NCBI GenBank assembly: GCA_021773645.1
Contig: JAJFJU010000010.1
Span: 248,001-312,000, forward strand
Direction of reading: 5' to 3'
Origin: Gammaproteobacteria bacterium
GTDB taxonomy: Bacteria; Pseudomonadota; Gammaproteobacteria; HK1
Length of the DNA stretch: 64,000 nt
Shown here: one piece after another, positions 7,483-49,700 of the stretch
Layout of the letters: the number at the start of each line of letters is the position of its first letter
Position numbering within the stretch: the first letter of the stretch is position 1
Notes under the pieces: model-generated
What the model saw: the letters and a program-made list of their open reading frames with translations, nothing else
The model's database searches: none
What the model was told of the DNA's origin: nothing
Position numbers and translations under genes: made by a program

Positions 7483-9820
7483 TAAAGAGAAAAAAGAACT
7501 CAGCGAAATAGATATCTGCGATCTATTCATTACCCCCGCCATCAAGGATGCGGGCTGGGATCAGTTCACACAGATTCGTCGCGAAGTCACTCTGACCCCT
7601 GGCCCGGTCATCGTCCGCGGCAACATGTCCTCGCGCAACAAGAAAAAGAAGAAATTCGCCGACTATGTATTGCAACGGGAAGCAGGTGTGCCGATCGCCA
7701 TTGTTGAGGCTAAGGACAACAAACACACGGTCAGTCATGGCATGCAGCAGGCCCTAGGTTATGCAGATATCCTGCATGTGCCCAGCGCTTTCAGCTCAAA
7801 TGGCGATGCCTTTGCCGGGCATAACAAACTGGCACCAATCACCGGCCAGGAAACTGAAACCCAGTTCCCGCTAGAGTCTTTCCCAACCCCCGCTGAACTC
7901 TGGCAGCGTTACAAAAGCTACCGCGGCATCGAAGATGATGAAGAAGAGCTCGTCACTCAGCCTTACCAAGATGACGGCTCGGGCAAAGAGCCCCGCTACT
8001 ACCAGGCCGAGGCGATCAACCGCGTGATTGAAGCGGTCGCTAAAGGTAAAAAACGCCTCCTGCTGGTGATGGCCACCGGCACCGGTAAGACTTACGCCAC
8101 CTTCCAGATCATCTGGCGCTTATGGAAGGCCAAGAAGGCTAAGCGCATCCTCTTCCTGGTCGACCGCAACATCCTGGCCGACCAAACCCTGGTCAATGAC
8201 TTCAAGCCCTTCGGCTCAGTCATGACCAAGATCAAAAACCGCAAGATCGATCCGTCCTACGAAATCTACCTGGGACTCTACCAGGCACTCACCGGCCCGG
8301 ATGAGGAAGACAAGATCTTCAAAAATGTGTCACAAGATTTCTTCGATCTGATCGTCATCGACGAGTGTCACCGTGGCAGTGCGGCCGAAGACTCCGCCTG
8401 GCGTGAGATCCTCGATTACTTCTCCGACGCAATCCAACTGGGCATGACCGCCACACCCAAGGAAACCGAGTACGTCTCCAACATCAGCTACTTCGGTGAC
8501 CCGGTCTATACCTACACTCTGAAGCAGGGCATCGAAGACGGCTTTCTGGCCCCTTATAAAGTCGTCCGCATCGATATCGACAAAGACGTTCTGGGCTGGA
8601 CACCACCAGCGGGCATGACCGACGACCTCGGCCAAGCCATCGAGCAACGCACCTACAATCAATCCGACATGGATCGCATTCTGGTGCTCAACCAGCGCAC
8701 CAAGCTGGTGGCCAAATGCGTTATGGAGCTGCTCAACGCCACTGACCCTTACGCCAAGACTATTATTTTCTGCGAGGATATCGACCACGCCGAGCGCATG
8801 CGCGTGGCCATAGTGAATGCCGCGGGCAAAGTCGCCACGGATAACCCCAAGTACGTCATGCGCATCACCGGCGATAGCGTCGAGGGCAAGGCCGAGTTGG
8901 ATAATTTTATTGACTCGGAAAGCAAGTTCCCCGTCATTGCTACCACATCCGAGCTTCTTACCACCGGCGTGGATGCTAAGACCTGCAAACTCATCGTGCT
9001 GGACAAAAATATCAAATCCATGACCACCTTCAAGCAGATTATTGGTCGCGGTACGCGTATCGAGGAAGAGCACAACAAGTATTACTTCACTGTCATGGAT
9101 TTCAAGAAGGCTACTGAGCTCTTTAAAGACCCAGATTTTGACGGCGAACCCGTGGTTATTTACGAACCCGGTAGTGGCGATGACCCGGTACCACCAGACC
9201 CCCCGGATGATGACCCAGATGACGGTGTCAAAGAGGAGTCCGGCGTCTACAAAGTCCAGATCAGCGGCGTGGAAGTAAGAATCCTCGCCAAACGGGTGGA
9301 ATACCTAGGTCCGGATGGCCAAATGGTCACGGAATCCTATCGAGACTACTCAAAAAACCAAATCCAAAGTGAATACGCCTCCCTTGATGATTTCATAAGC
9401 AAGTGGAACAGCACCAAGAAGAAAGAGGTCATCATTCAAGAGCTAGAAGAGAGGGGCATTACCCTGGCCAACCTGGCCCAGGAAGTCGGTAAGGAATACG
9501 GCGATTTTGATCTCATCTGCCACATCGCCTACGACATGCCGCCGCTCACCCGCAAAGAGCGCGCCGACAACGTCAAGAAACGCAATTACTTTACCAAGTA
9601 TGGCGAGCAGGCGAGGGCTGTGCTGGAATCGTTGCTCGACAAATACGCCGATGAAGGCATCACCACCATCGAAAGCCCGCGCGTGTTAAAACTCCAGCCC
9701 TTCGACCGCATGGGCACACCCATGGAAATTATTAACAACGCGTTTGGCGGCAAAAAACACTACGAACAGGCCGTCCAGGAGCTGGAACAAGAACTCTACT
9801 ATCAGGATAAGTCTGCATGA
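7475..9820 (+). CDS. hsdR: Type I restriction enzyme, R subunit (EcoEI-like HsdR)
   Basis: The 781-residue motor and nuclease subunit of a type I restriction-modification complex. The N-terminal PD-(D/E)xK nuclease is visible: FADYVL (Asp about 63) and AIVEAKD (Glu 78, Lys 80). The SF2 translocase follows with Walker A ATGTGKT (about 200-206), DECH (296-299), MTATP (324-328) and the late helicase motif [12 protein letters not shown]. The C-terminal EcoEI_R_C region extends to the end, after an acidic Pro/Asp-rich linker at about 568-590. With HsdM and HsdS it cleaves unmodified DNA away from the recognition site after ATP-driven translocation. The TGA stop overlaps the hsdM ATG by four bases. 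It appears intact, unlike the remnant upstream. Confidence 0.95.
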
Positions 9821-11310
9821 GTAATGTCAGCGGTATCATCAAGTCCATTCAGGACATCATGCGCAAAGACGTCGGCGTCGACGGCGACGCCCAGCGCATC
9901 AGTCAGCTGGTGTGGATGTTTTTCCTCAAAATTTACGATGACCGCGAGGCAGAGCTGGAGCTATTGGAAGATGATTACCAGTCTCCGCTGCCGGAGAAGC
10001 TCCGCTGGCGCAACTGGGCAGCCGATCCTGAGGGCATGACGGGCGACGAGCTCAACAAGTTCATCAACGACGAGCTCTTCCCAACCCTGAAAATCAAGCT
10101 CAACCTGCAAGGCCCCACCGGCCAGCGCGCCCTGGTTATTCGTAATGTCTTCGAAGATGCCTACAACTACATGAAGTCCGGCACCTTGATTCGCCAAGTC
10201 ATAAACAAGATCTGTGAAATCGACTTTAACAACACCGAAGATCGTCACACCTTCGGCTCGATCTACGAACAAATCCTTAAAGACCTGCAAAGCGCCGGTA
10301 ACGCGGGCGAGTTCTACACGCCCCGCGCCGTCACTAAATTCATCGTCGACCGGGTAGCGCCTCAGCTGAAGGAGTCTGTGCTCGACCCCGCCTGCGGCAC
10401 CGGTGGCTTCCTAGCCTGCACCATCGACCACAAACGTAAGTCTGTAAAGTCTGCCAAGGATGAAGAGACGCTACAGCAGAGTGTTCACGGCGTGGAGAAA
10501 AAAGCCCTGCCGCACATGCTCTGCACCACCAACATGATCCTGCACGGCATCGATGTGCCCAGCCAAATCGAGCACGACAACATGCTGAGCCGCCGCGCCT
10601 ACAAAGATTACGGCGAGAAAGACCGCGTCAATGTCATCATCACCAACCCGCCCTTCGGCGGCATGGAAGAAGACGGCGTGGAGAACCAGTTTCCCGCCAC
10701 CTACCGCACGCGCGAAACGGCCGACTTATTCATGGCGCTGGTCATCAAGCTGCTCAAAGCCAATGGCCGCGCTGCCGTAGTGTTGCCCGACGGTTTTTTG
10801 TTCGGAGAGGGCATGAAATCCCGCCTCAAGCAGGAGCTGCTGGAGAAGTGCCACCTGCACACCATCGTGCGCCTGCCCAACGGCGTGTTTAACCCCTACA
10901 CGGGCATCAAGACCAACATCCTGTTCTTCATCAAAAAGCCCGAGAGGGAACAGCCTGGCACCGAGCAGGTCTGGTTCTACGAGCACCCGTACCCGGAAGG
11001 GATCACCAGCTACAACAAAACTAAGCCGATGCGCTTCGAAGAGTTCGAAACCGAGATTGCTTGGTGGGGCAATGAAGAAGACGGCTTCAAAGACCGCGTC
11101 GAGACCGAACAGGCCTGGCAGGTCAGCATTGATGACATCAAGGCCCGCAACTACAACCTCGATCTCAAGAATCCGCATGTCGGTGAGCAGGTCAGTCATG
11201 ACCCGGAAGAACTGCTGGCGGAATACCAGCAACAGCAAGGCGAAATTCAGGAGCTGCGCGACCAGCTGAAAATCATTCTCTCCGATGCGCTGGGTGGAGC
11301 CAATCAGTAA
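9817..11310 (+). CDS. hsdM: Type I restriction-modification methyltransferase, M subunit
   Basis: A 497-residue N6-adenine methyltransferase subunit. The helical N-terminal domain (about 1-140) is followed by the SAM-binding catalytic domain: EFYTPR, motif [10 protein letters not shown] (190-198) and motif IV NPPF (277-280), the gamma-class adenine methyltransferase signature. The C-terminal part (GDQ-type contacts to HsdS, about 440-497) includes a predicted helix rich in Gln/Glu. Both catalytic motifs are intact, so the system should be able to modify DNA. It overlaps hsdR by four bases and hsdS by one (TAATG), which indicates tight co-translation. Confidence 0.96.
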
Positions 11311-40443: not shown

Positions 40444-41761
40444 GCAGGCAGCGACACTACTCATCGTCGATGACGAGCGCAATGTGCTAAGTGCATTGCG
40501 GCGGCTTCTTCGTTCCCATGGATACCAGATTCTAGTGGCTGAAAGTGGCGAGGAGGGGCTTGCCATACTTAAAGATGCCGCCGTGGATTTGGTGATTTCA
40601 GATATGCGTATGCCGGGTATGGATGGGGCAGATTTTCTAGGGCAGGTTGCCAACCGTTGGCCGGACAGTATGCGTGTGTTATTAACGGGTCAGGCCGATG
40701 TGGATGCCGCATTTCAGGCGGTCAAAGAAGGCAAGCTTTACCGCTTTATGCGTAAGCCCTGGGATGAAAATGATCTGTTGCTCACCATACGCAGCGCATT
40801 GCAGGCGCGGCAGGATGTGCTGGAGTTGCGGCGGCTTGAGCAATTATCGCTAAGGCAGAACAAAGAACTTCAGGGGCTCAATGAGAGTCTGGAGGAAAAG
40901 GTTTTGGCGCGTACCCAGGAAGTGGAGCAAACCGCCTCCTTTCTGGAAATGGCCTACAGCGAATTAAAAAATAGCTATATGACGGCGATACCGGTGTTCG
41001 CCAATCTGGTGGATATGCGCGAAGGGGCCTCTAAGGGGCACGGTCGACGGGTGGCGGAACTGGCACGTTGTATCGCCGAACGCATGGGGCTTGATGAGGA
41101 GCTGGTCCAAGATATTTATCACGCGGGTTTGTTGCACGATGTAGGCAAGATTGGCTTGCCGGACGCCATCGTGGAAAAACCCTTTACGGAGCTTAATCCC
41201 AAAGAGAAAAAGCAGCTTGAAAGCCATTCGGCATTGGGGGCGGATGTATTGCTTGCCTTGGAACCCTTGCATAACGCGGCGGATTTTATTCGTTCACATC
41301 ACGAAAGCTATAACGGTAAAGGCTATCCCGACCGATTGATGGGAGATGAAATTCCTCTCGGTGGTCGGATTCTCCGGGTAGCTAATGATTTTGATTCGGT
41401 TCAGTTGGGTCATTTGGTGGAACGGGCTATTTCCGTTAGCGAGGCCCGCGGATTGCTAAAGAAATATAGTGGTCAGTTTTATGATCCGGAGGTGGCGTCT
41501 GTGGCCTTGGAGCTGCTTGAGAGTGAGGGCGAACGCTTTCAGATAGACAGTGGCGGGGAAATACGCACTGACTCGGGTGGCTTACAGGCCGGTATGGTGC
41601 TGGCGCGGGAGGTGCTCAATCCGGCAGGGATCCTGTTGCTTCCCCGAGGAGCTAGATTGAGCGCAACTCAGATCCAGCGTCTGTGTGATTGTGAGCTCGA
41701 TGCGGATCGACGCTTTATCTATTATATCCAACGGGAAGCAGGGAAAATTCAGGCCGAATAG
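40436..41761 (+). CDS. Response regulator with HD-GYP domain
   Basis: A 441-residue regulator. The receiver domain (1-125; phospho-acceptor Asp 56 in ISDMRMPG) and a coiled-coil linker lead into an HD-GYP domain (about 180-340; LLHDVGKIG, HHESYNGKGYP) and a C-terminal extension of about 100 residues. HD-GYP enzymes hydrolyse c-di-GMP. The usual VAD-x-[FY]-DA motif reads VANDFDS here, with Asn 317 where a metal-ligand Asp is expected, so activity may be altered. Start is TTG 40436 with AGGAG about 10 bases upstream, overlapping the kinase stop by eight bases. Confidence 0.9.
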   Translation: MVEQAATLLIVDDERNVLSALRRLLRSHGYQILVAESGEEGLAILKDAAVDLVISDMRMPGMDGADFLGQVANRWPDSMRVLLTGQADVDAAFQAVKEGKLYRFMRKPWDENDLLLTIRSALQARQDVLELRRLEQLSLRQNKELQGLNESLEEKVLARTQEVEQTASFLEMAYSELKNSYMTAIPVFANLVDMREGASKGHGRRVAELARCIAERMGLDEELVQDIYHAGLLHDVGKIGLPDAIVEKPFTELNPKEKKQLESHSALGADVLLALEPLHNAADFIRSHHESYNGKGYPDRLMGDEIPLGGRILRVANDFDSVQLGHLVERAISVSEARGLLKKYSGQFYDPEVASVALELLESEGERFQIDSGGEIRTDSGGLQAGMVLAREVLNPAGILLLPRGARLSATQIQRLCDCELDADRRFIYYIQREAGKIQAE

Positions 41762-41864
41762 TGAGCTAGTTTCCGTATTCTCGTTACCCGATTCCAGCTG
41801 GAATCAAAGCATTTCTCCTGCTCCATTGTGTTGTTTTCAACCCCCGCGCTCGGCGAGCTTTCGC

Positions 41865-41886
41865 TATACTGGTTAAATGAACAGTA
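41865..41886 (+). promoter_or_regulatory. LexA (SOS) box overlapping the dnaE2 start
   Basis: TACTGGTTAAATGAACAGTA (41867-41886) matches the E. coli LexA consensus at 15 of 20 positions, with both conserved CTG/CAG half-sites and the N10 spacing. It overlaps a TATACT -10 box (41865-41870) and the ATG at 41877. LexA bound here would block the promoter. Confidence 0.75.
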
Positions 41887-44800
41887 TTCGCTCGTGTCCA
41901 CGAGATCCATCTTCATCAGAAAATTTCTCACCTGACTACGCCGAGCTGCATTGCATCAGTAATTTCAGTTTTCTCCGCGGTGCCTCGCATCCGGAGGAAA
42001 TGATGACGAGGGCCGCGGAGCTGGGCTATACGGCGCTAGCACTCACCGATGAATGCTCTTTCGCCGGTGTGGTGCGAGCCCATGTGGCGGCCAAGGCCCA
42101 AGGGATCAAACTTATCCTGGGTACCGAAGTACGCCTCAAAGATGGCCCGAAGTTGGTGCTGTTAGCGTGCAATCGCAAGGGTTACGGGCAGCTCTCTGAG
42201 CTCATTAGCCGAGGGCGTCTGGCTGTAGGAAAGGGCGCTTATCAATTGACCTGCTCCGATCTGGAAGATGGCCTGTCGGACTGTCTGGCTTTGTTATTAA
42301 GGGGAGAAAATTCTCCTTATGAACAGTTGAGCTGGGCGGCAGAGCGTTTTCCCAAACGCCTATGGTTGGCGGTGGAATTGCTTCGGGATGGCCTAGATGA
42401 GCAGCGGCTTTCCCGGCTGCGAGATTTGGGTCGGCGCGCCCGGGTGCCACTGGTGGCAGCGGGTGATATCCACATGCATCGTCCCACCCGCCGTGCGCTG
42501 CAAGACACCCTCACAGCCATCCGCCTAGGCTGTCCAGTGGCTGAGGCCGGGGATGCGCTATGTGCAAATGGTGAGCGCCATTTGCGCCCCCGTCAGCGCT
42601 TGGCTGAGCTCTATCCTCGCGATCTTCTATCGGCAACTCTTGCGATAGCGGAGCAGTGTGATTTCTCCCTAGATGAGCTGCGCTATGAATACCCCGAAGA
42701 ATTAGTGCCACCAGGAAAAACACCAGCAGGTCATTTGCGGGCGTTGACCGGTGCGGGGATGAATCAGCGTTGGCCGGAAGGTGCACCGGCGCGGGTACGC
42801 AAGCAGGTGGCGCGGGAGCTTGAGCTTATTTCAGCGCTGGGCTATGAGCCTTATTTTCTTACCGTTCACGATCTCGTTTGTTTTGCCCGCGAGCGCAAAA
42901 TCTTATGCCAGGGGCGCGGTTCTGCGGCCAATTCCGCGGTGTGTTATTGCCTCGGTATTACTGCAGTGGACCCGGCCCGCATGGAGATGCTATTCGAGCG
43001 CTTCATCTCCCGTGAGCGTGATGAACCACCGGATATTGACGTGGATTTTGAGCATGAGCGGCGCGAGGAGGTAATCCAGTACATCTATCAGAAATACGGT
43101 CGCCATCGGGCCGCGCTGACCGCCACCGTCATCTCCTATCGTCCCCGTAGCGCCTTGCGTGATGTGGGCAAGGCGCTGGGCTTGGATGGAGCGCAGTTAG
43201 AGCGTCTGGCTGCTTCCGTGGCTTGGTGGGATGGCCGCCAAGTACTTGCGGAACGCCTGCGTGAGGCTGGCTTCGAACCGGAAAATCCAGCCATTCACCG
43301 GCTCATGGTATTGGTGGAGCAGCTCATTGGTTTTCCCCGGCATTTGTCCCAGCATGTGGGCGGTTTTGTCATTGCGCGGGACCGGCTATCCCGGCTGGTA
43401 CCTATTGAAAATGCCGCCATGGAAAAACGTACCGTCATCCAGTGGGACAAGGATGATCTGGATGCCCTGGGTTTGCTCAAGGTGGATGTGTTGGGGCTTG
43501 GCATGCTGAGTGTTATCCGTCGTGCCCTCAAACTGGTGGGCCACAGGCTCGGTCGGGTTATGGAACTGACGGATATCCCGGCCGAGGACCCGGCGGTGTA
43601 CCGGATGATTTGTCGTGCCGACTCCCTTGGAGTATTCCAAATCGAATCACGGGCTCAGATGGCTATGTTGCCGCGCCTGTTGCCCCGTTGTTTTTATGAC
43701 CTTGTCATCGAGATCGCCATCGTGCGTCCCGGCCCCATCCAGGGCGGTATGGTGCATCCCTATCTGCGTCGTCGGCAGGGCAAGGAGGCGGTGGATTATC
43801 CCTCAGCCGCGGTGCGCAAGGTGCTGGAGCGCACCTTGGGCATACCGATTTTTCAGGAACAGGTGATGCAGCTTGCGGTGGTCGCTGCTGGCTTTAGCCC
43901 GGGGGAGGCGGATCAGTTGCGCCGTGCCATGGCGGCCTGGCGGCGCAAGGGTGGTTTGGGACCCTTCGAAGCGCGGTTGACCGAGGGCATGCATGAGCGG
44001 GGTTATTCCGCTGAGTTTGCTCAGCGTGTTTTTCAGCAGATTCAGGGCTTTGGGGAATACGGTTTTCCTGAGTCCCATGCCGCCAGTTTTGCCTTGTTGG
44101 TTTATGTGTCGGCCTGGCTGAAATGCCATCATCCCGCGGCCTTTGCTTGTGCCCTGTTAAATAGCCAGCCCATGGGCTTTTATGCCCCAGCGCAGATTGT
44201 TCAGGATCTTCGTGTTCAAGTAGGCAGGGTGCTTGCGGTGGATGAGCGTTACAGTGATTGTGACTGCACATTGCTGCAGAATAATGAAGAAAATCCCACC
44301 TTGCGTCTGGGGCTGTGCATGATCAAGGGCTTCTCACAAAGTGGTGCAAATTTACTAATGAATAGCCGTGATGTGGATGGATTATGGGGGTCCGTGGAGA
44401 TGTTGGCTCGACAAAGCGGCTTGTCACGGCGGCAATTGCAATGTTTAGCCGCGGCCGGTGCGCTGGCCGGACTCATTGGGAATCGTCATCAGGCGCAGTG
44501 GGCGGTGCTGGGTACGGATGCCATGCCTCTATTGTTGCAGCACAGTGCCTTTACCGAGGCCTCACCGTTGTTGCCAGTGCCTACCGAGGGTGCAGATCTG
44601 GTGATGGATTATGCCAATCTGGGTTTTTCCCTAGGGCGGCATCCACTGGCCTTGTTGCGTGGGCATTTCCATCGGGATGTGTATGACGCGGCTCGTATAG
44701 CCAAGAGTCGTCACGGACAACGGATACGGGTGGTTGGCCTAGTGATTAACCGGCAGCGGCCCTCTACTGCGGCCGGGACGGTGTTCATGACCCTAGAGGA

Positions 44801-44999
44801 TGAAACGGGGCACGTGAATGTGGTGTTACGCCCGCAACTGGTGGAGCGTGAGCGCAGTCTGGTGCTGGCTGGGCGGTTACTGGAAATCAGCGGAAAGATC
44901 GCCCGCGAGGGGCGGGTGATTCACGTGTTGGCCAGCGGGCTGGCCAACTACGATGCTCTATTGGGACAACTAGAAACCCGTTCTAGAGATTTCCATTGA
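41877..44999 (+). CDS. dnaE2: Error-prone DNA polymerase DnaE2
   Basis: A 1040-residue C-family polymerase of the DnaE2/ImuC type, used in SOS mutagenesis with ImuA and ImuB. Order: PHP domain (YAELHCISNFSFLRGASHPEE), polymerase core with the active-site acids in PPDIDVDFEH (about 383), the finger/thumb region (GRGSAANSAVCYCLGIT), helix-hairpin-helix, and a C-terminal OB fold (RIRVVGLVINRQRP...GHVNVVLRP). ATG 41877 is the only start before the PHP domain; it has no Shine-Dalgarno sequence and coincides with the predicted transcription start. imuA and imuB, usually directly upstream, are not in the window. Confidence 0.95.
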   Translation: MNSIRSCPRDPSSSENFSPDYAELHCISNFSFLRGASHPEEMMTRAAELGYTALALTDECSFAGVVRAHVAAKAQGIKLILGTEVRLKDGPKLVLLACNRKGYGQLSELISRGRLAVGKGAYQLTCSDLEDGLSDCLALLLRGENSPYEQLSWAAERFPKRLWLAVELLRDGLDEQRLSRLRDLGRRARVPLVAAGDIHMHRPTRRALQDTLTAIRLGCPVAEAGDALCANGERHLRPRQRLAELYPRDLLSATLAIAEQCDFSLDELRYEYPEELVPPGKTPAGHLRALTGAGMNQRWPEGAPARVRKQVARELELISALGYEPYFLTVHDLVCFARERKILCQGRGSAANSAVCYCLGITAVDPARMEMLFERFISRERDEPPDIDVDFEHERREEVIQYIYQKYGRHRAALTATVISYRPRSALRDVGKALGLDGAQLERLAASVAWWDGRQVLAERLREAGFEPENPAIHRLMVLVEQLIGFPRHLSQHVGGFVIARDRLSRLVPIENAAMEKRTVIQWDKDDLDALGLLKVDVLGLGMLSVIRRALKLVGHRLGRVMELTDIPAEDPAVYRMICRADSLGVFQIESRAQMAMLPRLLPRCFYDLVIEIAIVRPGPIQGGMVHPYLRRRQGKEAVDYPSAAVRKVLERTLGIPIFQEQVMQLAVVAAGFSPGEADQLRRAMAAWRRKGGLGPFEARLTEGMHERGYSAEFAQRVFQQIQGFGEYGFPESHAASFALLVYVSAWLKCHHPAAFACALLNSQPMGFYAPAQIVQDLRVQVGRVLAVDERYSDCDCTLLQNNEENPTLRLGLCMIKGFSQSGANLLMNSRDVDGLWGSVEMLARQSGLSRRQLQCLAAAGALAGLIGNRHQAQWAVLGTDAMPLLLQHSAFTEASPLLPVPTEGADLVMDYANLGFSLGRHPLALLRGHFHRDVYDAARIAKSRHGQRIRVVGLVINRQRPSTAAGTVFMTLEDETGHVNVVLRPQLVERERSLVLAGRLLEISGKIAREGRVIHVLASGLANYDALLGQLETRSRDFH

Positions 45000-45037: not shown

Positions 45038-47071
45038 TCAGAGCTGGAAGCGTCCCACTAGCTGCTGCAATTCTCCCGCCACCGACGCCAATTCCTGACT
45101 GCTCTGCGCCGATTGCTGAGCCCCCGTAGCGGCCGAGTCGGCGACCTCGCGGATGGAGGACAAATTCGTGTTGATGTCCTCGGCCACCACACTTTGCTCT
45201 TCCGAGGCACTGGCGATTTGGGCATTCATATCGGTGATGGTATGGACCGCACTGCCGATAGCGGTGAGTGATTCACCGGCCTTGGCGGCTTGTTCCACGC
45301 TGTCCTGAGTACCACGCTGACTCTCCTCCATGACCTTGACCGCTTCACCGATACCGGTTTGCAGGCGTTGGATCATATTCTGAATTTCCTCGGTGGATTG
45401 CTGAGTGCGGCTTGCCAGGGTGCGCACCTCGTCAGCCACTACGGCAAAGCCCCGTCCCTGTTCACCTGCCCGTGCCGCCTCGATGGCAGCATTCAGTGCC
45501 AGTAAATTGGTCTGTTCGGCGATGCCCCGAATCACGTCCACTACGGAGCCGATCTTATCGCTATCTGTCTCCAGCTCTTTAATAACCCCGGAGGCCTTTT
45601 CCACCTCTGCTGCCAGCCGATCGATGGTATCGATGGCCTGGCCAACCACCTGTTGGCCATTATCGGCATCATCTTTGGCTTGATTGGCTGCCTGTTCGGC
45701 TTCCTGAGTGCTGTGGGCAACGTCGCGTACCGCCGAGGACATTTCGTTCATGACGTGAGCGATTTGCTCGGTCTGACCACGTTGCTGCTCCGCACCATCC
45801 AACGCCTGTCCGGTGGAATCACGCAGTTGTGTCGAGGCACCGGCGAGTTGGGTGGTGGATTGGTTAATGCTGCCAATCATCTCTCGCAAATTAGCGGTAA
45901 TGGCATTAAATGCCTGGGCAACTTGGCCCAGCTCATCCTGACTGGAGCACCGTACAGTCATGGCTAGGTTGCCACTGGATAGCTGCTCCGCCCCCCATTG
46001 CAATCGGCCGATGGCCCTAACCACCGAATTGTAAAAGCCAATAAAGAGATAAAGGGCCAGCGCCAGGGCGCCAAGGCATGCCCCAGCCACCAGGGTGAGC
46101 TTGTTTCCAAGGCGGCTAGCGCGTTGAGTCAGCAAGGCGTTTAGCTCGACGGCGGCACCGTCAAATAGTGCAAAACCCGCATCCACAGCCTTGCTACCGG
46201 CAGCGAACATCTCTGGGCCAGTCGCATTGATCTCGGTCATGCCTTCAATGCTAACGATATTTTTGTCAGCCAGGTGGAGAAAACTTTGAGCGTTGTCGTT
46301 AAGCCCGGTAAGCAGGGGAGTGAGACTGCCCTTGAGTGATGGATTAGCCCGAGTGATAGCATCCAAAGACTGCTGGGTGCGTTGTGAGCCACTTTGAATT
46401 TGCCCGGATAGGATTTGAGTGGCTTGCTTGTCTTCCTGGGTTACCCAGCGGCTGCTTACCAGGCCAGTGGCCTTTGCCCGCAGCAGCCCAAGCCGCTCGA
46501 GGGTAATCGGTAGCTTGGTCACGATGGCATCCATCAGGTAGAAGCTGTCCAGGTCAGGATCAAGCATGAGCGCAGAGTTATCAGCCGCTAGCTGAATCAG
46601 AGCAATGACGGACTCAATGAGTTTGCTGTGGGCTACTAGGCTACCTTCCGACTTAAGCTGGGTGTGGCTACCTGCTAACTGGCTCCAGCTATTTTTTATT
46701 TCTTGCCACTTTGCATCTAAGCGCAGGGGGACGGCGAGGCGTGAATTCAATTTATCGATGGCCTGAATGTCGGCATTAATACTGGCTTGTTTGCCAACAA
46801 ACTTGGGTTGAAATTCTTTCACCCCTTCAAGAAATCCTACCGACAGACCACGATGTTCTGGCAGATGTTGAAGCAAAGGTTTTAGCGCTTGAACATATTC
46901 CAGGCCCATTTGCTCTCGTTCGGTAGTTGCTTTCTGCCCACTGACATCACTGATAAGCAGGCTCATCACCAGGATTAGAGGCAGAATGAAGATAACTGAG
47001 ACCAGAGCCATCTTGTGCGAATAACTCAGTCGATCCATGAGGTGCATGGCGGGGGCAATAAAAGCGTTCAT
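45038..47071 (-). CDS. Methyl-accepting chemotaxis protein (first of a pair)
   Basis: A 677-residue receptor. TM1 (about 20-42) and TM2 (about 325-348) bracket a helical periplasmic sensor region of about 280 residues with the pattern [20 protein letters not shown] and later [18 protein letters not shown]. This resembles nitrate/nitrite-sensing type helical bundles, but I do not assign a ligand. A HAMP domain and a long signalling domain follow, with the hairpin tip containing [19 protein letters not shown]. No CheR-binding pentapeptide ends the protein. It shares almost the whole signalling domain with the receptor encoded upstream at 47318-49360. Confidence 0.95.
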
Positions 47072-47154
47072 TTAGCTATCTCCAACAAGCATTTGGGCGG
47101 TGTTGCTTCGCTCCGGGCCACACGGTTTATTTCCTTCCGTGCTCTTGTTGGGTG

Positions 47155-47181
47155 GTATCGGTACAAATAAGAATATCTTTA
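47155..47181 (-). promoter_or_regulatory. Flagellar sigma-28 promoter of the first chemoreceptor
   Basis: Minus strand: TAAAGATA (47181-47174), 11-base spacer, ACCGATAC (47162-47155). The consensus is TAAAGTTT-N11-GCCGATAA. The spacing is exact and 12 of 16 bases match. It lies about 85 bases before the ATG. Confidence 0.7.
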
Positions 47182-47239
47182 ATGGTTTTATCGAATGGGG
47201 TGCTTGGTGAGGAGAGGGCTGTTTGGCTTATCTGGATTG

Positions 47240-47274
47240 CCCCTGTCATATCGCTTGGGCAGGCATGACAGGGG
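47240..47274. other. Perfect 10-bp inverted repeat between the chemoreceptor genes
   Basis: CCCCTGTCAT (47240-47249) and ATGACAGGGG (47265-47274) enclose a 15-base loop about 45 bases after the second receptor's stop. It lacks a T-run, so it may be a weak terminator or an RNA-stabilising hairpin. Confidence 0.5.
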
Positions 47275-47317
47275 AGAGTAAGGGGGGAGCGTTGCCCCCT
47301 TTAATGTAAAGCACTTG

Positions 47318-49360
47318 TTAGGAGGTGAGTTTGAAGCGTCCCACCAGTTGCTGCAGTTCATCGGCAATGGTCGATAGGTCCTGACTGCTTTGGGCTGATT
47401 GGCGTGCCCCTGTTGCGGCGGTGTCGGCCACTTCGCGAATAGAAGACAAATTGGTGTTGATATCTTCCGCCACTACGCTCTGTTCCTCCGAGGCACTAGC
47501 AATCTGGGCGTTCATGTCGGTGATGGTGGAGACAGCACTGGCGATGGAGTTGAGGGATTCGCCAGCTTTGGCCGCTTGTTCAACGCTGTCCTGGGCCCCG
47601 CTGCGACTCTCTTGCATGACCTTGACCGCCTCACTGATGCCGGTTTGCAGACGTTGGATCATGCTCTGAATTTCTTCAGTGGAGGACTGGGTGCGACTCG
47701 CTAAGGTGCGTACTTCGTCAGCCACTACGGCAAAGCCTCGCCCTTGTTCTCCCGCTCGTGCGGCCTCAATAGCGGCGTTTAGCGCCAGTAGATTGGTCTG
47801 CTCGGCAATGCCACGGATGACGTCGACTACTGAGCCGATCTTGTCACTATCGGATTCCAGGTCTTTGATAACCCCCGCGGCCTTTTCCACTTCGGCGGCC
47901 AGCTTGTCGATGGTATTGATAGCTCCACCGACGACGTGCTGCCCATTGCTGGTTTCGTCATTGGCCTGATTGGCCGCTTGCTCTGCCTCCTGGGTGCTAT
48001 GGGCAACGTCGCGTACCGCCGATGACATTTCATTCATGACATTGGCGATCTGCTCGGTTTGTCCGCGTTGTTGCTCTGCCCCGTCTTGGGCTTGCACCGT
48101 AGAGGTGTGGAGCTGGGTGGAGGCACTGGCTAGTTGCGTGGTGGATTGCCCGATCTGTCCAATGAGGGTGCGAAAGTTTTGGGTCACAGTGTTGAAGGCA
48201 GCGGCCACATCGCCTAGTTCGTCTTGGCTATCGCGTGGGAATTCAACTGTGAGATCACTATTAGCCAGTCGGGTTGATGCCTGTTTGAGGCTGGCAATGG
48301 TATTGCTAACTGAGGTGTAGAATGCAACAAACAGATAAATGGCGATCACTAGGGCAGCGAGACTGCCACCGGCAGCCAGAGTCAGCTCCCTCTGCATGGC
48401 GCTAATACGTTGACTGAGGATCTGTTCCAGCGCTCTCGTGGCGCCATCCATCAACTCAAAACCAGCATCGACCACCTTGCTGCCAATGCTGAAGGCCTCG
48501 CTGGCCCCCAACTCAACTTCGTAGATGTTCTCAACATTGAGAATGTTTTTATCCACCATCTCAAGCAAGGTGTGCCGGGAGCTGCCTAATAGGGCTAGGT
48601 TTCCGGCAAGTTGTTCACGTAGTCCGCCATTGGCCTCGAAGGCACTAGCCAGGCCAAGCTCCATCGCCTGCAGCTTGCTGGCGGTGCTGGAGCCCAATGC
48701 CGTCAGTTTCTGCTTGTGCGCCGTGGTAATCAGTTTGCTGGCTAACAGACCGCTGGCTAGACCACGTAGTTGGGCTAGTTCCTCAATGGTTGGCGGTAAC
48801 TGATTAACGACACTGTCCATGAGATAAAAGCTGTCCAGCTCTGGGTCCAGGGTGAGATTGGATTTATTAGCTACCAGGCGTACCAGCGCGATGACATCCG
48901 CAATGAGGGCGCTATGCTGCTTGAAAACAACCTCAGTATCGCTATTTTCAAATTGTTTGTTTTCCAGCGTTTTCCAAGCCTGCTTGATGCGGCTCCACTG
49001 GGCGTCGGTCTGGAAGGCTGCACCAAATTCTCGATTGATCGCATCAACATTCTGTATATCTTTGGTGATAATGCTGCGCTGAGCTTGTAGTTTTCCCAGG
49101 AAACTTTTAGAGCCTCCAAGATAGGTGGCGCTCATGCCTCGGTGTTGCGGCAGGTGTTTGAGCAAGGGGCCAAGCTCCGTGATGTATTGCAAGCCTTGGT
49201 GCTCTTGCTGGGTAGTGGTTATTTGGTGGTTGAGTTTGCTGATGAGCAATGAAACCACCAACACCAGAGGCAATATAAAAATAACTGAAATGAGCAGCAT
49301 CTTGCGCGAGTAGCTGATTCGGTTCATAAGCTGTAGCGCGGGGAGTAGCAGGGCGTTCAT
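47318..49360 (-). CDS. Methyl-accepting chemotaxis protein (second of a pair)
   Basis: A 680-residue receptor with the same plan as its downstream neighbour: TM1 ([18 protein letters not shown]), a periplasmic helical sensor with [15 protein letters not shown] and [21 protein letters not shown]2, HAMP, and a signalling domain nearly identical to the first. The sensor parts are clearly divergent, so the pair arose by tandem duplication and probably separated in ligand range. ATG 49360 is chosen for the GGAGG 6 bases upstream; the frame continues to 49390. It has its own sigma-28-like promoter. Confidence 0.95.
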
Positions 49361-49700
49361 GAGTGCCTCCATAGGCCTTGAATAAAGCATCTAGTGGCAG
49401 TGTGCGACGCGTTGGCTTTTTATGCCTTAGACGAAGCACCTGCGCACATGTTCATTTAACGGTCATTATGGAGCCAACTTTAGAGTTTTTTTGGATGTTG
49501 CGATTGTTCTGAAGGCCCCTTCATATTCTGTTCTTGCTTGCGGGTAAGCGCCAAATCCGTTAACATTCCGCTCTTTTTTTAGGGCCCCTGTGGGCCGCAT
49601 TTTCCGCCAGCTGTTTCGGGCGGGAAATTTCGTTGGAGGGAACCGGTGGCTTCGTCACCTGGGCTCTTCCGCACCCAACCACAATCAGGAAAACAGGCTT
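49361..49700. other. Divergent intergenic region before ppdK
   Basis: About 340 bases. The left part holds the sigma-28-like promoter of the chemoreceptor. For ppdK a weak candidate is TTGCGA (49498-49503), 18 bases, CATATT (49522-49527). A small GGGCCC/GGGCC hairpin lies near 49582-49597 in the presumed ppdK leader. The open frame from 49590 has no ribosome site and is not considered coding. Confidence 0.45.
49456..49482 (-). promoter_or_regulatory. Flagellar sigma-28 promoter of the second chemoreceptor
   Basis: Minus strand: TAAAGTTG (49482-49475), 11-base spacer, ACCGTTAA (49463-49456). Thirteen of 16 bases match TAAAGTTT-N11-GCCGATAA, and the spacing is exact. It is about 95 bases before the ATG. 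Confidence 0.75.

Follow-up and report, generated by a model that had tools for sequence, protein, structure and literature searches.

The window, the 64,000-nucleotide stretch of gammaproteobacterial DNA analysed here, carries a gene for an error-prone DNA polymerase, dnaE2 (imuC), at positions 41877–44999 of the forward strand (1040 codons plus the stop codon). In a family-model search, the product scores 1450 bits against NF004225, for which the cut-off is 939, bearing out the original prediction that the gene is dnaE2. Its assignment to the DnaE2/ImuC group combines this score above the error-prone DnaE cut-off with the presence in the same genome of ImuA, ImuB, and a separate, replicative DnaE homolog (G000:C28:28920-32039). 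The gene 5′ of dnaE2 encodes a NosR-family response regulator; 115 bases separate the end of its frame (41761) from the dnaE2 ATG. On the 3′ side, two adjacent long frames occupy positions 45038-49390 of the reverse strand; their C-termini are very similar, which suggests a tandem duplication, and the first of them matches chemotaxis receptor models.

Several elements coincide at the start of dnaE2. A predicted LexA operator (SOS box), TACTGGTTAAATGAACAGTA, occupies positions 41867–41886 of the forward strand and spans the start codon. On the same strand, a −10-like hexamer, TATACT (41865–41870), matches TATAAT at five of six positions and ends 6 bases before the ATG at 41877–41879, where transcription is also predicted to start. 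The placement of the 20-base box over both TATACT and the ATG was verified in the sequence, and the layout from 41865 to 41886 confirms that repressor site, −10 element, and start codon are squeezed into about 22 bases, as had been proposed. The operator's right half doubles as the codons for Met-Asn-Ser. An in-frame TAA (41874–41876, forward strand) abuts the start codon and rules out a longer frame; the TAA is present in both sister genomes too. Codons 2–40 hold no in-frame ATG, GTG, or TTG (codon 11 is CCA), leaving the box ATG as the only such codon between this TAA and the conserved YAELH at codon 21, and the conserved YAELHCISNFSFLRGAS falls within the same start-free first 40 codons. 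Because no alternative canonical start lies between the TAA and codon 40, the box ATG would by exclusion be the dnaE2 start in the window genome, unless a non-canonical codon is used.

The gammaproteobacterial LexA box follows an approximate TACTGT-N8-ACAGTA consensus, with which the boxes at the surveyed dnaE2 loci agree. TACTGGTTAAATGAACAGTA matches TACTG and CAGTA exactly at its two ends and qualifies as a palindrome near this consensus, despite having CTGG rather than CTGT in its left half-site. Across the 2,489,738-base genome, an exact TACTGN10CAGTA occurs at the dnaE2 box alone. With up to one mismatch, the same pattern is found at 40 places genome-wide versus 99 for a backwards control, showing no excess, and CTGTN8ACAG is barely commoner in the genome than in a reversed control (580 versus 493). 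Since such loose counts are similar to or lower than those of the controls, motif counting alone is no proof of a LexA box, and genome-wide enrichment was dropped as an argument for a regulon.

Both sister genomes of the genus have boxes (TACTGTATAAATGAACAGTC and TACTGTTTAAATGAACAGTA) that keep register with the ATG, so that all three genus genomes, the window genome included, possess one. The surrounding intergenic stretch is otherwise diverged. We further surveyed 94 dnaE2 loci with no near-duplicates among them. L048 and L124 were left out of an 80-locus set since the match lies at a contig edge; 16 of the 26 loci L001–L026 were used, with L002 dropped as the same place as L046, and L012, L014, L017, L019, L021, L022, L023, L025, and L026 dropped as cut, masked, fragmentary, or more distant. 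A LexA box scoring at least 19 lies upstream of the conserved YAEL at 31 of the 94 loci, versus none of 282 control stretches inside the same dnaE2 genes, the highest of which scores 17. The motif is thus conserved at orthologous promoters, within the genus and at about a third of the surveyed loci.

The boxes are distributed unevenly with respect to imuB, which we counted as upstream when it lies within 900 bases upstream of dnaE2. Thirty of the 31 dnaE2 genes with a strong box lack an upstream imuB and one has it, whereas 55 of the 63 without a strong box have imuB upstream and 8 do not (Fisher P = 4e-16, phylogeny ignored). A strong LexA box thus marks most dnaE2 genes not directly preceded by imuB and hardly any that are. 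This pattern strongly suggests that the box accompanies a dnaE2 that stands alone and must carry its own promoter. For most of the other dnaE2 genes with a box, candidate start codons lie past it. The idea that TATACT serves as a general, directional −10 of box-bearing dnaE2 genes was rejected: the signal is weak, as TA immediately precedes the box in 11 of 31 cases and its mirror is seen in 5 of 31.

The window genome encodes one clear LexA; a second match, at C19, falls under the family cut-off. This LexA aligns nearly end to end with E. coli-type LexA chains (E = 9.5e-86) and keeps the AG dipeptide, catalytic residues, and most of the helix that we take to be, respectively, the cleavage site, the active site, and the recognition helix of LexA. 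Its gene heads a lexA-imuA-imuB operon and has its own box, TACTGTCTATATTTACAGTT, 17 bases before the lexA ATG. The organism thus possesses an E. coli-like LexA with the same motif on its own gene, and not a LexA with a different motif, which had been named as a finding that would speak against LexA control. ImuA is identified by NF033429 (217.8 bits); ImuB is named by its place after imuA and its sequence, family models giving weak Pol IV matches only. Since dnaE2 lies approximately 268 kb from lexA-imuA-imuB on the same contig, the mutasome cassette is split. The E. coli-like LexA, the same-register boxes, and the association of the box with detached dnaE2 genes together make LexA control of dnaE2 through TACTGGTTAAATGAACAGTA well supported by inference.

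A check of other SOS genes in the genome found a LexA-like box at lexA-imuA-imuB and an integron integrase but not at recA. At recA, a box was required to match at least 5 of 6 core and at least 11 of 20 consensus bases; the region running from 500 bases ahead of the recA match to 20 bases inside it contains none in the three genus genomes (L142, L143, and L144), and recA was set aside as a further SOS gene. Because recA lacks such a box, the genus may have a small SOS regulon built around lexA-imuA-imuB, dnaE2, and the integron integrase. The integrase (TIGR02249, E = 1e-111) is located at about 9187-10271 of G000:C28 (L128:1188-2271, reverse strand), and a LexA-like box, TACTGTTTATATATCCAGCA, lies 23 bases ahead of its ATG; integron integrases are known to be under SOS control (PMC3108266).

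Two features expected of a leaderless start are present at dnaE2. TATACT stands 6 bases before the ATG, with the same spacing in all three genus genomes and within the range of about 6–8 bases, and no ribosome-binding site precedes the ATG, in agreement with the original prediction. The pairing energy is only −2.7 kcal/mol, a value that the best starts of all but 3 of the 41 predicted genes in the window surpass, and dnaE2 alone among these 41 combines the lack of a Shine-Dalgarno sequence with a TANNNT 5–8 bases before the start. Seven bases past the end of the −10 lies 41877, the A of the ATG; from the 6-base spacing, the transcript is expected to start at this A or 1–2 bases earlier. The promoter is incomplete: with spacers of 15–19, the best −35 hexamer matches one of six positions in the window genome and three of six in each sister genome, no extended −10 is present at dnaE2, and a consensus scan of 41700-42000 returned no promoters. 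The first interpretation of the locus accordingly stands for the LexA operator (through the comparative tests), for dnaE2, and for the sole canonical start, but the promoter that it assumed has no −35. Leaderless transcription of dnaE2 is plausible.

The box, its register, its conservation, the reading frame, the E. coli-like LexA, and the association of the box with detached dnaE2 genes are direct observations. From them we propose that dnaE2, apart from imuA-imuB, probably has a LexA-repressed, damage-inducible promoter of its own that yields a message likely to be leaderless. A LexA dimer would cover the −10 and the predicted transcription start, so that RNA polymerase could not load. RecA-driven self-cleavage of LexA would then free the dnaE2 promoter together with the separate lexA-imuA-imuB operon. 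The resulting message would most likely start on the AUG or no more than about 2 bases from it, and would be translated without a ribosome-binding site.

One competing account accepts the LexA operator and treats the ATG within it as incidental, with translation starting downstream and the stretch in between forming a short 5′ leader. In loci L004-L006, from the same family, the spacing between box and YAELH is similar, but candidate starts fall at −24 to −30. The box of L088 contains an out-of-frame ATG, so an ATG in a box can be incidental. Codon 11, moreover, is ATG in G001 and GTG in G002. Between these two genomes, codons 1–20 differ by 1 synonymous and 4 nonsynonymous changes, with no purifying selection seen (codons 21–120 show 16 synonymous and 11 nonsynonymous changes); coding constraint on codons 1–20 is thus unsupported, and together with the codon-11 triplets this makes a later start possible in G001 and G002. 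In the window genome, however, with CCA at codon 11 and a start-free stretch through codon 40, a later start could be made only via a non-canonical codon, and all three genus genomes have an open reading frame from the box ATG. We regard this account as rather unlikely. Under the reading that we prefer, in which the box ATG is the start, the start codon likely migrated upstream into a stationary operator, so that the former leader became a 20-residue tail.

The start could also be correct and the message not leaderless, with transcription coming from an upstream promoter or from read-through of the response regulator gene, the box acting as a roadblock, and ribosomes reinitiating at TAAATG. 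The lack of a −35 at dnaE2 would fit such an arrangement, as would a 58-codon frame from 41700 that ends at the TAA abutting the ATG, and TAAATG is kept in all three genus genomes. Yet the scan of 41700-42000 offers no upstream promoter, the 58-codon frame starts inside the upstream gene in a different frame with a weak ribosome site (−4.1 kcal/mol), and the TAA belongs to the operator sequence, which explains its conservation otherwise; we consider this arrangement improbable. The chance is slighter still that the box is a fortuitous palindrome in an organism whose LexA does not control dnaE2. Genome-wide motif counts that do not exceed the reversed control would be consistent with coincidence, but the recurrence of the same box across the genus, its presence at 31 dnaE2 loci against no control stretches, and its near-exclusivity to dnaE2 genes without imuB upstream make coincidence very hard to sustain. 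These comparisons favor the reading of a LexA-repressed dnaE2 promoter.

To look for similar arrangements, we scanned 369 genomes of the class under two designs, with the ATG at box position 11 or beginning at the last box base. The former yields 27 places in 26 genomes, against 9 for the reversed control (counted by eye). Six are in-frame SOS genes, namely dnaE2 (G000, G001, G002, and G076), umuD (G239), and an imuB-like gene (G122); four others adjoin lexA or imuA without using the box ATG (L152, L162, L163, and L164), and the remaining 17 are short frames, in-gene matches, or other genes. The imuB-like product of G122 is 33% identical to ImuB of the window genome; TATACT precedes the ATG of its gene by 6 bases, a ribosome site is lacking, and the next possible start comes no earlier than codon 30. 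Behind the G239 umuD, a long frame takes the place expected of umuC. This umuD has the 6-base TATACT spacing too but could instead start at codon 21, where the ribosome site is better (−6.3 kcal/mol); for the G076 dnaE2, an alternative start is possible at codon 6. The scan set also includes G229, which carries two copies of a LexA-like box, TACTGTATGGATGTACAGT (L160 and L173), on different contigs before related frames.

The second design yields 18 places in 16 genomes, against 12 for the reversed control (counted by eye), and again six SOS genes: dnaE2 (G067 and G031), lexA (G191, G153, and G265), and imuA (G077). The LexA box of the G191 lexA (L183) contains a perfect TATAAT whose end lies 6 bases before the box-touching ATG; there is no ribosome site and no upstream in-frame start, which makes this gene a strong candidate for a leaderless, self-repressed lexA. 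The G067 dnaE2 has TATATT 8 bases before its ATG and likewise lacks a ribosome site and an upstream in-frame start. The G191 lexA and the G122 imuB-like gene are the clearest parallels to the window dnaE2. Weaker parallels are the G031 dnaE2 and the G077 imuA, because upstream in-frame starts are present, and the G153 lexA, because it has no good −10. Since the genomes concerned belong to different families, except for the trio of the window genus and the pair G153/G265, the compression of operator, −10, and start codon looks recurrent across families. A broader proposal is tentative and may well prove wrong: that gammaproteobacterial SOS genes repeatedly fuse these three elements into about 22 bases, giving leaderless or near-leaderless lexA, dnaE2, imuB, and perhaps imuA and umuD, with independent origins in several families.

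LexA control of imuA-imuB-dnaE2, split cassettes included, is established (PMC8072749, PMC3323433). These cassettes share with the window genome the same genes, LexA control, and a dnaE2 at its own locus with its own box; the passages available from those papers name other splits and do not mention a box over the start or a leaderless dnaE2. In Mycobacterium tuberculosis, experiments place the translation start of lexA at its transcription start (PMC2897130), an SOS gene with coinciding starts of the kind predicted here for dnaE2. That case concerns another gene in another phylum where leaderless messages are common, and the available passages do not place an operator over the start codon, unlike the arrangement at dnaE2. 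The dnaE2 of Streptomyces venezuelae is induced by damage and bound by LexA, and a LexA site has been reported within the gene (PMC9380542). It resembles the window dnaE2, for which binding and induction are predicted, in having a LexA site, but the motif is different, and the site given for it begins 68 bases ahead of the predicted start codon.

Searches of open-licence papers turned up no title or abstract on a LexA box overlapping a gammaproteobacterial start codon, which, at the level of titles and abstracts, is weak evidence of absence. The proposed regulatory logic at dnaE2 is ordinary SOS repression; what sets the locus apart is that operator, promoter, and start codon are fused, and that this fusion recurs. 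To our knowledge, leaderless translation starts are usually considered rare in Gammaproteobacteria. If the broader proposal is true, SOS messages free of ribosome sites could favor the synthesis of mutasome proteins and LexA under damage. If the messages are leaderless, induced mutagenesis would combine a very tight promoter occlusion with a translation start that is usually considered rare in the class. The operator sequence would, in addition, dictate the protein's first codons.
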